Shown: positions 1-4,337 of the stretch, in pieces | Layout of the letters: every line of letters begins with the position of its first letter | Position numbering within the stretch: the first letter of the stretch is position 1 | DNA from: Alphaproteobacteria bacterium | GTDB lineage: Bacteria > Pseudomonadota > Alphaproteobacteria > Rhodobacterales > Rhodobacteraceae | NCBI GenBank assembly: GCA_030428355.1 | Contig: JAUIBL010000001.1 | Location: forward strand, 62,001 to 126,000 | Direction of reading: 5' to 3' | DNA: 64,000 nucleotides | Made by a program: the position numbers and the translations under genes | Notes under the pieces: model-generated | The model's input: the letters and a program-made list of their open reading frames with translations, nothing else | The model's database searches: none | What the model was told of the DNA's origin: nothing

Positions 1-2245
1 CGCGGGTCGCGTCGCGGTCGTCATCGGGGTGGATGTCGATGCGGATCTCGTTGTCGGAGATGTCGCGCAGCAGTTCGGCAAACACCTTGTGGGCCGTGAC
101 ATGCAGGCCCTGCCAATAGGGCGGGTAATGGCGCGCGGTCTCGACGCGGAGATCCTTGGCATCCCAGCCCTGAAGCGCATCGCGCAGGGTCTTCTTGGCC
201 TCGGCACCGCGGTTCTCGCGGTTGAGCGCTTCCATCCCGTCTTCAAGCGCGCGGCGGGTCTGGCGGTAAAGCGCCCGGATCAGCGCTGCTTTCCAGTTGT
301 TCCAGGTGCCGGGACCCACACCGCGGATGTCGCAGACGGTGAGCACGCAGAGCAGGTCAAGCCGTTCGCGGGTCTGCACCGCCTTGGCGAAATCGCGCAC
401 GGTGCGGGGATCGGCGATGTCGCGTTTCTGGGCCATGTCGGACATCAGCAGGTGATAGCGCACCAGCCATTCGACGGTGGCGCATTCCTGTTTGTTCAGG
501 CCCAGACGGGGTGCGACCTTGCGGGCGATCTTGGCACCAAGGACCGAGTGATCTTCGTCCTGGCCCTTGCCGATGTCGTGCAGAAGCAGGGCCACATAAA
601 GCACCTTGCGGTTCACACCCTCCTTGAGGATGGAGCTGGCGACGGGCAGGTCTTCCTCGAGATGACCGTTTTCGATCTCGCTCAGGTGCCAGATGCATTG
701 GATCGTGTGTTCGTCCACCGTGTAGTGGTGGTACATGTTGAACTGCATCATCGCGACGATCGGTTCGAACTCGGGGATGAAGGCCGCCAGCACGCCCAGT
801 TCGTTCATGCGCCGCAGGGCGCGTTCGGGGTTGCCGTGTTTGAGCAGCAGATCGAGGAAGATGCGTTGGGCTTCCTTGTCGTTGCGCATGTCGCGGTCGA
901 TGAGATGCAGGTTGGCGCTGATCAGGCGCATGGCATCGGCGTGGATCAGCAGACCGGTGCGCAGGGCCTCTTCGAAGATGCGCAGCATGTTCATCTTGTC
1001 GGCCAGAAACGCGGCGTCGTCGGTGATGGCGAGGCGGTTGTTCACCACCTCGTAGCCGTCGCGCGTCTTGGGCTGACGCTTGAAAAGCCGCATCAGAAGC
1101 GGCGGTTCCTTTTGCTGCGACGCTTCGAGCGAGGTCAGAAAGATGCGGGTCAGGTCGCCGACCGAGGTGGCATGGCGGAAGAAGTCCTGCATAAAGATCT
1201 CGACCCCGCGGCGACCGCCCTTGTCGGCATAGCCCATGCGGTCGGCCACCCCGACCTGCATGTCGAAGGTGAGCTGTTCGGTGGCGCGGCCCGAGGCGAG
1301 GTGCAGATGGCAGCGCACGGCCCAGAGAAAGTTCTCGGCCTTGACAAAGGTCGAGAATTCCTCGGGGCGGAAGACGCCGGCGCGCACCAGTTTGCTGAGG
1401 TCGTCAGTGTGGTGGATGTACTTGGCGATCCAGAACAGCGATTGCAGATCGCGCAGGCCGCCCTTGCCCTCTTTCACGTTCGGTTCGACCATGTAGCGTT
1501 GGCCCTGCTTGACGTGCCGGGCGTCACGTTCGGCCAGCTTGGCCTCGACGAATTCGACCTCGGTGCCCTTGAAGAGCGTGTTCCAGAGCTTGGTGTCGAG
1601 ATCGTCTGCCAAAGGCTCGAAGCCGACAAGAAACCGGTGTTCGAGCATCGCCGTGCGGATGGTGAAATCATCGGCCCCCAGTCGCAGGCAGTCTTTGACG
1701 GTGCGCGAGGAATGGCCGACCTTCAGCTTCAGATCCCACAGGATATAGAGCATGGATTCGATCACGCTCTCGGCCCAGGCGGTGATCTTGTAGGGTGTCA
1801 GGAACAGCAGATCGACATCCGAAAACGGGGCCATTTCGCCCCGGCCATAGCCGCCGACTGCCAGAACGCAGAGGCGTTCGCCCTCGGTCGGGTTGGGGTT
1901 GCGGTGGATGCGTTCGGTGACGATTTCAAGGGTCAGCCGGATGAGTTGATCGGTCAGCCAAGTGTAGCCCGTGGTGACCGGCAAGGCATTGCGGGGCTGC
2001 GCGTCAAGCCGGGCGGCGACGGCGGCACGCCCAGTTTTCTGCGCCTCCTTGAGAACGGCAACAACCGCGCTGCGGACCTCGCGTTCGTCATAGCTGTCGC
2101 CAACGGCCCCCCACATCGCATCGCGAAGGGGTTGCACATCGAGGATGTCGGAAAAATCGTCGGAGGCCGGTGCGGCCCCCGACGGGGTGGTCAGGCTCAG
2201 GGATTTAGAAGCCTGCGCCGCCGAAGCCGGATGGGGCTGGGTCAA
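1..2245 (-). CDS. glnD: [Protein-PII] uridylyltransferase / uridylyl-removing enzyme, 3' end beyond window
   Basis: The gene runs off the left edge, so about 748 residues of a protein usually near 900 are present. GlnD uridylylates and deuridylylates PII proteins according to glutamine level and so controls nitrogen assimilation in the cytosol. Seen: the nucleotidyltransferase signature GGYGRGEM followed by SDVDLLFL (about residues 130-146) and the HD-domain motif LLHDIGKG (near residue 555); the C-terminal ACT domains would lie outside. The chosen start is TTG at 2245 because AGGTGA lies six bases before it; this overlaps the 3' end of the upstream lipoprotein gene by 41 bases. GTG at 2137 or ATG at 2116 are alternatives, but both remove sequence ahead of the conserved domain that homologues appear to keep. 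Identity is certain; the start is moderately so. Confidence 0.95.
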   Translation of the reverse strand, partial: MTQPHPASAAQASKSLSLTTPSGAAPASDDFSDILDVQPLRDAMWGAVGDSYDEREVRSAVVAVLKEAQKTGRAAVAARLDAQPRNALPVTTGYTWLTDQLIRLTLEIVTERIHRNPNPTEGERLCVLAVGGYGRGEMAPFSDVDLLFLTPYKITAWAESVIESMLYILWDLKLKVGHSSRTVKDCLRLGADDFTIRTAMLEHRFLVGFEPLADDLDTKLWNTLFKGTEVEFVEAKLAERDARHVKQGQRYMVEPNVKEGKGGLRDLQSLFWIAKYIHHTDDLSKLVRAGVFRPEEFSTFVKAENFLWAVRCHLHLASGRATEQLTFDMQVGVADRMGYADKGGRRGVEIFMQDFFRHATSVGDLTRIFLTSLEASQQKEPPLLMRLFKRQPKTRDGYEVVNNRLAITDDAAFLADKMNMLRIFEEALRTGLLIHADAMRLISANLHLIDRDMRNDKEAQRIFLDLLLKHGNPERALRRMNELGVLAAFIPEFEPIVAMMQFNMYHHYTVDEHTIQCIWHLSEIENGHLEEDLPVASSILKEGVNRKVLYVALLLHDIGKGQDEDHSVLGAKIARKVAPRLGLNKQECATVEWLVRYHLLMSDMAQKRDIADPRTVRDFAKAVQTRERLDLLCVLTVCDIRGVGPGTWNNWKAALIRALYRQTRRALEDGMEALNRENRGAEAKKTLRDALQGWDAKDLRVETARHYPPYWQGLHVTAHKVFAELLRDISDNEIRIDIHPDDDRDATR

Positions 2246-3386
2246 GGATGGTCACCTGGTTGTTGCGCACGGTTGCCACGGCGAGACCGCGCTCGTTGGT
2301 TCCGTCCGGGCGCAAGCGGAAGACGCCGTTGGCGCCCTGAAAGCCCGAATTCTGTGTCAGCGCCCGCGCGGTGAGCGCGTCCGACCGGCCCTGCCGGACC
2401 AGGGCGCCGACGGCTGCGATGCCATCAAAGGCAAGGCCCGCGAGCGGATGTGGATCCTGCCCGAACTGCGCGCGGTAGCGGCTGTCGAAGGCGTTTTTGG
2501 CGGCGGTGTCGGGCAGTGTGAAATAGCTGCCCTGTGCGCCGGGCATGGACAGGATTTGCGCGGGGACGTCCCAGCGGGCGAGGCCCATATACTGGGTCGT
2601 CGCAGGGCTGACCCCCGCCTCGGGCAGCATTTGCAAAAGCATCGGCAGCGCGCCTGCGGCGTTCGAGGTGAGGAAGACAGAATCCGCCCCGGTGGCATCG
2701 ACGCTGCTGCGGATGCGCGGAACCGCCGAGGTCACACCTTCCTGCGAGAAGGGAAAGGATTCGATGGCGGCGACGCGGACGCCGTTTTGCGTCGCGGCGG
2801 CCTGGATCGCGGCCTTGCCGAATTCGCCTTCGACGTTCTGGGGATGCACGATCACAACCGAGTTGCGACCCTGACGGGCGGCGTAGCCCAAGAGACGGTT
2901 CGCGGTATTGCGGAATGTGGGCCCGAGAACAAAGACGTTGCCGCCCGCGATGGACGGGTTGTTCGAGAAGCTGAGCACATTGACGCCGTTGTCGGCCACC
3001 GCGACACCCGCGGCGTTGGCGGCTTCTCCGAAGAGCGGGCCGAGAATGATCTGGGCCCCTTCGGCGACGGCGGTTTCGGCCTGAAGCGCGGCGCGCTGGG
3101 CATTGCCGGCGGTGTCGTAGACGCGCAGGTCGATCTGCACGCCATCAAGAGAGGCGACGGCGAGGCGTGCGGCGTTCTCGAGGCTGGCCGCAACGGCGCC
3201 CGCGCCGCTGTCGCTGCGGGGAATCAGCAGGGCGGCGGGAATGGGCGCGTTGGTGTTGACGCTGGGCCCGGACCCCGCGCTTGGGGCGGACATCATCGCC
3301 GGATCACAGGCCGCGAGGCCCAGGAAGGCGGTGACCGCCACGGCTTTGCGCAACAGCTTGCGGGGGGTGGACAAAACGGCCAACAT
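2205..3386 (-). CDS. LpoA/LppC-like penicillin-binding protein activator, lipoprotein
   Basis: A 393-residue exported lipoprotein with a periplasmic-binding-protein type I fold. The N-terminus is basic, then hydrophobic, ending in lipobox LGLAAC, so it should be lipid-anchored after cleavage before Cys. The body matches the LppC/YraM family (segments such as IILGPLFGEAANAAG and VFLTSNAAGALPMLLQ). In gammaproteobacteria LpoA stimulates PBP1A in peptidoglycan synthesis; in alphaproteobacteria that role is only inferred. It is divergent from rsmI-yraN, the arrangement seen around lpoA in many proteobacteria, and its 3' end overlaps the proposed glnD start. The open frame extends further upstream, but ATG at 3386 is chosen because it places the signal peptide correctly. 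Confidence 0.85.
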   Translation of the reverse strand: MLAVLSTPRKLLRKAVAVTAFLGLAACDPAMMSAPSAGSGPSVNTNAPIPAALLIPRSDSGAGAVAASLENAARLAVASLDGVQIDLRVYDTAGNAQRAALQAETAVAEGAQIILGPLFGEAANAAGVAVADNGVNVLSFSNNPSIAGGNVFVLGPTFRNTANRLLGYAARQGRNSVVIVHPQNVEGEFGKAAIQAAATQNGVRVAAIESFPFSQEGVTSAVPRIRSSVDATGADSVFLTSNAAGALPMLLQMLPEAGVSPATTQYMGLARWDVPAQILSMPGAQGSYFTLPDTAAKNAFDSRYRAQFGQDPHPLAGLAFDGIAAVGALVRQGRSDALTARALTQNSGFQGANGVFRLRPDGTNERGLAVATVRNNQVTILDPAPSGFGGAGF

Positions 3387-3476
3387 AAAACGCACTCCCT
3401 TTGTGCGCGAACCGTCATTTCCGCACACGACATTGATTGGGGCCGATAATAGACAACGACAAAGGCGGGTCCAGAC

Positions 3477-4337
3477 ATGAATTGGCAGACACGCGAGATC
3501 GCGCCGGGGCTGTACCTGGTGGCGACGCCTCTGGGCAATGCGCGCGACATCACGCTGCGGGCGCTTGACCTTCTGGCCGGGGCGGATGTGCTGGCGGCCG
3601 AGGACACGCGGTCGCTGCGGCGGCTGATGGAGATCCACGGGGTTGCGCTGGGGGATCGTCCGCTGGTGGCTTATCACGATCACAATGGCGACCGAGCGCG
3701 GCCCCGGCTGCTGGCCGCGCTGGAGGCGGGGCAGTCGGTGGTCTATGCGTCAGAGGCGGGCACGCCGCTGATCTCGGACCCGGGGTTCGACCTGATGCGG
3801 GCGGCGTTGCAGGCAGGTTTGCCCTGCACGACGGCCCCGGGGCCGACGGCGGTGGTGGCGGCATTGACCCTGTCGGGATTGCCGTCGGACCGGTTCCTGT
3901 TTGCGGGGTTCCTGCCCAACACGTCAAGCAAGCGGAAGAGCGCGCTGGCCGAGTTCACGGGCGTTCCCGCGACGCTGATCTTCTACGAATCCCCCAAGCG
4001 GCTGGGCGCGATGCTGCGCGATGCGGCAGAGGTGCTGGGGCCGGATCGCGAGGCCGTGGTCTGCCGGGAATTAACCAAGAAATTCGAAGAGCGTTGTGCG
4101 GGGACGTTGCAGGATTTATCCACAAAATATGCGGATGAGACGCCGAAAGGCGAAATTGTGGTTCTGATCGATCGGGGGGCCGGGGTGGTCACCGATCAGG
4201 GCACGCTGGACGAAGCGTTGCAGGAGGCGTTGGCGCGGATGTCGGTGAAGGATGCGGCGACGGAAGTGTCTCGGATTTTCGGGATTTCGCGCCGTGAGGC
4301 CTATCAAAGGGCGATGGCGTTAGGGAAAAATTATTGA
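3477..4337 (+). CDS. rsmI: 16S rRNA (cytidine(1402)-2'-O)-methyltransferase
   Basis: A 286-residue SAM-dependent tetrapyrrole-methylase-fold enzyme that 2'-O-methylates C1402 in the decoding centre of 16S rRNA. Family motifs are all present: LYLVATPLGNARDI at the N-terminus, AEDTRSLRRLM, YASEAGTPLISDPG, and GPTAVVAALTLSGLPSDRF in the SAM-binding region. Length is normal for RsmI. It is the first gene of a short plus-strand group with yraN and gshB and is divergent from the LpoA-like gene, a conserved neighbourhood. The C-terminal helix-turn-helix-like tail (ISRREAYQRAM) is also typical. Confidence 0.96.
   Translation: MNWQTREIAPGLYLVATPLGNARDITLRALDLLAGADVLAAEDTRSLRRLMEIHGVALGDRPLVAYHDHNGDRARPRLLAALEAGQSVVYASEAGTPLISDPGFDLMRAALQAGLPCTTAPGPTAVVAALTLSGLPSDRFLFAGFLPNTSSKRKSALAEFTGVPATLIFYESPKRLGAMLRDAAEVLGPDREAVVCRELTKKFEERCAGTLQDLSTKYADETPKGEIVVLIDRGAGVVTDQGTLDEALQEALARMSVKDAATEVSRIFGISRREAYQRAMALGKNY

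Follow-up and report, generated by a model that had tools for sequence, protein, structure and literature searches.

A probable TTG start codon for glnD, inside the 3' end of an lppC-like gene, is conserved in most sampled genera of Rhodobacteraceae

Near one end of the 64,000-nucleotide stretch of DNA analysed here (the window), a glnD gene adjoins an upstream lipoprotein gene on the same strand, which raises the question of where GlnD translation begins and why a TTG would serve as its start codon. The identity of the downstream gene is clear, as its product scored 1038.2 bits against the equivalog model NF003467 (cutoff 959) and 713 against TIGR01693 (cutoff 519.4), both above the curated cutoff, and contained the nucleotidyltransferase-linked domain (PF08335; E 3.8e-45) and the HD domain (PF01966; E 3.4e-12). 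The glnD frame counts 939 codons in its own genome; the window ends within the gene. The upstream gene encodes a protein with a periplasmic-binding-protein fold (PF13458; E 9.9e-43), which carries the sequence LGLAAC, spotted by eye and taken by us to be lipobox-like. The name lppC serves as a label. No NCBIfam match to an LppC/LpoA-specific model was found for this protein up to E 0.001, and its Pfam matches were PF13458 and PF01094 only; hence, the gene is written as lppC-like (lppC for short below). Based on sequence identity, the window comes from a Marivita-like bacterium within the Rhodobacteraceae/Roseobacter group, since the closest named loci were those of Marivita; records bearing this name in their title matched the query at identities of 93% down to 79% over its length, and Marivita sp. 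GX14005 at 73%.

The initial annotation had placed the start of glnD at a TTG within the lipoprotein gene, with AGGTGA at a suitable spacing, 36 residues more than the next start would give and an overlap of 41 bases with the preceding gene, and all of this was retrieved from the sequence (Table 1). On the minus strand, a spacer of 6 nt separates AGGTGA (2257-2252) from TTG (2245-2243). Two codons 5' of TTG, the glnD frame is interrupted by the TGA within this motif (2254-2252), so that no start is possible further upstream in this frame. In the window, TTG 2245 is the sole in-frame ATG, GTG or TTG ahead of GTG 2137 (36 codons further on), which is followed by ATG 2116 (43 codons further on than TTG). 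With TAA (2207-2205) as the stop of the LppC-like frame, 41 nt are shared by two frames of the same strand, making this a unidirectional overlapping pair with dual coding. The AGGTGA motif itself is made by lppC codons for Gln-Val.

Table 1. Coordinates in the window of glnD, the upstream lppC-like gene and the features at their junction.
Feature	Position	Strand	Evidence or remark
glnD, [protein-PII] uridylyltransferase, 5' part, running off the window	2..2245	-	NF003467, PF08335, PF01966
ATG, second alternative start of the initial annotation, judged an internal Met codon	2114..2116	-	ATG in 11/16 overlap-sharing genus loci
GTG, alternative start of the initial annotation, judged an internal Val codon	2135..2137	-	GTG in 8/16 overlap-sharing genus loci
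Remainder of the 36 codons preceding GTG 2137, GlnD-only coding	2138..2204	-	pN/pS; NF003467 match from residue 26
Overlap of LppC C-terminus and GlnD N-terminus, 41 nt, two frames	2205..2245	-	No lppC-frame silent variation in 16 genus loci
Predicted TTG start codon of glnD	2243..2245	-	Kept in 16/17 genus loci; TTG in 85/106 in-frame family loci
AGGTGA, Shine-Dalgarno-like	2252..2257	-	AGGTGA wherever TTG is kept (16/16 genus loci), AACTGA in the locus lacking it
ORF holding the upstream LppC-like lipoprotein gene	2205..3683	-	PF13458; true start inside the listed ORF

The explanation that very probably holds is that glnD is initiated through a Shine-Dalgarno (SD) sequence at TTG 2245 in the 3' end of lppC, within an old dual-coding overlap in which the LppC codon determines the TTG. 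Ribosomes would thus initiate at this codon by ordinary SD pairing inside the 3' end of a co-directional gene, the 41-nt overlap being an old and conserved dual-coding junction. TTG shares its first two bases with the end of an LppC codon that has to encode Ile, Leu or Val. SD pairing combined with low local structure, both brought about by the codon choice in lppC, probably compensates for the weak start codon. Initiation at the TTG itself is inferred, as would be any effect on the GlnD level.

Alignment of relatives at the GlnD N-terminus, proposed earlier as a check on the start, bears strongly in favour of it. The glnD gene was present in 17/17 genomes of the genus, that of the window included, and 16/17 loci had TTG in the corresponding position, preceded by AGGTGA; both the start codon and the SD motif are thus conserved. 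The anti-SD sequence was found in 15/17 of these genomes and not in the incomplete genome of the window. Across the overlap, both frames are constrained. Indeed, among the 16 genus loci sharing it, pS in the lppC frame was 0.000 in the overlap, versus 0.366 in the 13 codons before and 0.518 in the 60 codons before, and GlnD codons 1-13 showed a pN of 0.000 and a pS of 0.034. Only three overlap columns were variable in these loci; two are third positions of GlnD codons and silent there, but cause missense changes to Ser in LppC, from Pro in one case and from Gly in the other. The third belongs to the stop codon of lppC, which is either TAA or TGA, and alters GlnD codon 14. The remaining genus locus, that of Marivita sp. 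GX14005 (L017 in the genus set and L030 in the family set), has AACTGA and CTC where the others have AGGTGA and CTT, its LppC tail being unchanged, and an ATG in its glnD frame follows the stop codon of lppC at a distance of 9 nt. This locus seems to have lost the SD sequence and the start codon together and to have gained a new ATG start beyond lppC.

The survey was extended to the family with one genome per genus (149 genomes, 147 of which gave a match), and 130 loci were fetched (30 and 100). As the 17/147 matching genomes outside this sample comprised the 15 weakest matches and two partial ones, the sample is tilted towards nearer kin. An order-level search returned 61 genomes, all with the same family code, so that the survey covers the family; loci L227 to L251 stand outside the counts. 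In 130/130 fetched loci, glnD was preceded by the lppC-like gene in the same orientation. Anchored on the conserved LppC tail, 126/130 loci could be scored, those without the anchor motif (L193, L202, L224 and L226) being dropped; a set of 121 loci (9 of the 130 left out) underlies the tree, the SD-candidate counts and the residue counts over 97 loci given below.

In 106/126 loci, glnD was in frame and uninterrupted as far as the site that corresponds to TTG 2245, and 86 of these had a start codon there (85 TTG and one GTG), with an overlap of exactly 41 nt in 82 of these 86. Where glnD was out of frame or closed, a start codon (TTG) occurred at the site in just 2/20 loci, and start codon and frame were linked (86/106 versus 2/20; Fisher p 1.5e-9, loci treated as independent). 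In addition, TTG at the site exceeds chance, with 85 cases seen versus 20.45 expected (sd 3.69) from the codon usage of each lppC gene itself, over the 101 testable loci (those in frame whose LppC residue at the site is Ile, Leu or Val). Codon choice in lppC is biased around the start as well. In loci with a start codon, SD pairing before the site was -8.89 versus -7.09 for codon shuffles (p 5.8e-7, kinship ignored) and local folding around it was -5.52 versus -7.22 (p 1.2e-7, kinship ignored). In-frame loci without a start codon displayed neither an SD-pairing excess nor weak folding relative to codon shuffles. Both departures were likewise absent from out-of-frame loci, SD pairing being, if anything, weaker there than in the shuffles (p 0.033). 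Kinship was considered with a FastTree tree of the 121 loci, on which at least 27 changes of start state and 18 of frame linkage were counted. In 11 independent pairs with contrasting frame linkage, the start codon went along with the linkage in 7.9 and against it in 0.4 (averages), giving a median p of 0.016 (range 0.002-0.29); this kinship-aware test, which also took four loci of other sets, is weaker than the locus-wise p values.

The start is less sharply defined in part of the family. Indeed, 20 of the 106 in-frame loci keep the frame open, yet have no ATG, GTG or TTG at the site. Among these is the Falsiruegeria/Tropicibacter group (L066, L068, L069 and L109), in which TCG replaces TTG, with the glnD frame open through the overlap, and the first usual start codon is a GTG located 14 nt before the lppC end, with a weak SD (L109). 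Among the 86 loci with a start codon, the frame is closed within 6 nt upstream in 44 and open further in 42; in the latter, therefore, the frame alone leaves an earlier start possible. All five SD 5-mers tested were absent from 36/86 of these loci, and the site had the best SD pairing among the in-frame candidates near the junction in 67/77 loci and not in 10/77. A second in-frame TTG, located some 20 nt ahead of the lppC stop in the Phe-Gly codons TTT GGC, recurs in many genera and is a possible minor start.

The genetic code offers a sufficient reason for the TTG. Read in the LppC register, an ATG at this site gives His, Asn, Asp or Tyr and a GTG gives Arg, Ser, Gly or Cys; with TTG alone, the residue is Phe, Leu, Ile or Val. 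The site would thus carry TTG, and neither ATG nor GTG, as it is the only one of the three to leave a hydrophobic residue in LppC. The LppC residue at the site was Ile, Leu or Val in 96/97 in-frame loci and Arg in one, the latter belonging to a family genus (L211) with GTG at the site, where the start codon appears to have been kept at the cost of the upstream LppC protein. In lineages that have left the overlap, the start candidate with the best SD was ATG in 9, TTG in 7, GTG in 6 and none in 1 (n = 23). A return to ATG outside the overlap is thus weakly borne out (9/23) and, given this mixture, the notion that TTG occurs only because it is forced is not clinched.

That TTG is a deliberately weak start, kept to hold the PII-modifying enzyme GlnD low, as the initial annotation had hinted, is quite improbable; of that earlier interpretation, it is the start assignment that is strongly supported, by its conservation among relatives. 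Its persistence in 85 of the 106 in-frame loci would fit such a role, and the retention of UUG is notable given that selection generally acts against a switch of the start codon from AUG to UUG (Belinky et al., PMC5622118). The overlapping LppC codon, however, accounts for the TTG without selection on its strength, so that its conservation is no evidence of selection for a weak start. Moreover, SD pairing and low structure beyond those of codon-shuffled controls are the reverse of what a tuned-down signal would show. GTG occurs at the site in one genus, and the lineages out of frame show the mixed start candidates given above. The signal around the TTG rather looks tuned for good than for poor initiation. 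A start at GTG 2137 or ATG 2116, with an accidental open frame upstream, is very improbable. Both codons lie in the glnD frame, but they are poorly conserved within the genus (Table 1), and they were rejected as starts on these grounds. Furthermore, the codons just ahead of GTG 2137 evolve as protein. In 14 gap-free genus loci (L015 and L016 being excluded from the segments downstream of the overlap), the pN/pS of GlnD was 0.415 for codons 14-36, in which codons 14-27 alone were loose (0.60) and codons 28-36 reached 0.20, compared with 0.27 for codons 44-100, which supports translation upstream of GTG 2137. The NF003467 match, too, begins before both codons, at residue 26 counted from the TTG.

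Translation of glnD may be coupled to that of lppC, so that GlnD output would follow that of the lipoprotein; this is possible, albeit doubtful. The same-strand adjacency in all fetched family loci and the nearly fixed overlap length agree with it. However, termination-reinitiation has been found to require that the overlap or distance between the genes be very short (PMC10666635). Here, the distance from the TTG to the lppC stop beyond it is 38 nt, more than the few nucleotides of such pairs and, hence, termination-reinitiation is not expected. Also, the glnD site has an SD sequence of its own. It is unlikely that the buried start ties GlnD output to LppC-like translation in such a way that coupling, rather than ancestry, keeps the 41-nt overlap; if true, nitrogen signalling would be tied to envelope synthesis across the family. 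Finally, that the conserved 41 nt form an RNA or DNA regulatory element rather than a dual-coding start is extremely improbable. Although the stretch is near-identical within the genus, the two substitutions before the lppC stop codon sit in GlnD third positions, and, in family loci with a start codon there, folding around the site is weaker than in codon shuffles. An RNA element was rejected, as an Rfam scan of positions 1800-3600 gave no match at gathering score and 121 nt around the start folded no better than shuffles (z -0.07).

SD-directed initiation at a TTG within lppC would be an ordinary mechanism that is unusually well conserved. Long same-strand overlaps and UUG starts with a strengthened SD are already known, and the glnD case is a well-conserved instance. 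In PMC3887535, overlaps of 1 and 4 nt belong to phase 2 and those of phase 1 are essentially long; the glnD overlap of 41 nt falls outside the former class and resembles the long unidirectional phase 1 overlaps, in that the downstream gene starts inside the upstream one on the same strand. Whereas that source explains long overlaps without selection, the lppC-glnD overlap is under two-frame constraint across many genera and, unlike the overlaps described there, its lppC codon choice carries the SD and start codon of glnD. The pair shares co-directional overlapping genes with the ATGA and TGATG termination-reinitiation pairs covered in PMC10666635, but differs from these in the length of its overlap and in a start with its own SD. 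Similarly, it is like the UUG starts compensated by a stronger SD in PMC5622118, as its SD pairing is above the codon-shuffled expectation; in contrast to those cases, the weak codon of glnD is explained by the overlapping frame and not by a tolerated start-codon switch. No description of the glnD overlap start was found in the titles and abstract openings searched, and its absence from print is not claimed.

The assignment would settle where GlnD, which regulates nitrogen assimilation, truly begins across a large group of marine bacteria; start callers that avoid TTG or overlaps would drop about 36 GlnD residues. The locus also provides a clean natural example of the protein sequence of one gene dictating the start codon of its neighbour, with the escapes in Marivita sp. 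GX14005 and in L211 (GTG) available for comparison. On the plus strand, a 790-codon open frame (2..2374), open at the window edge, runs antisense to glnD and is probably a by-product of GC-rich codon use.
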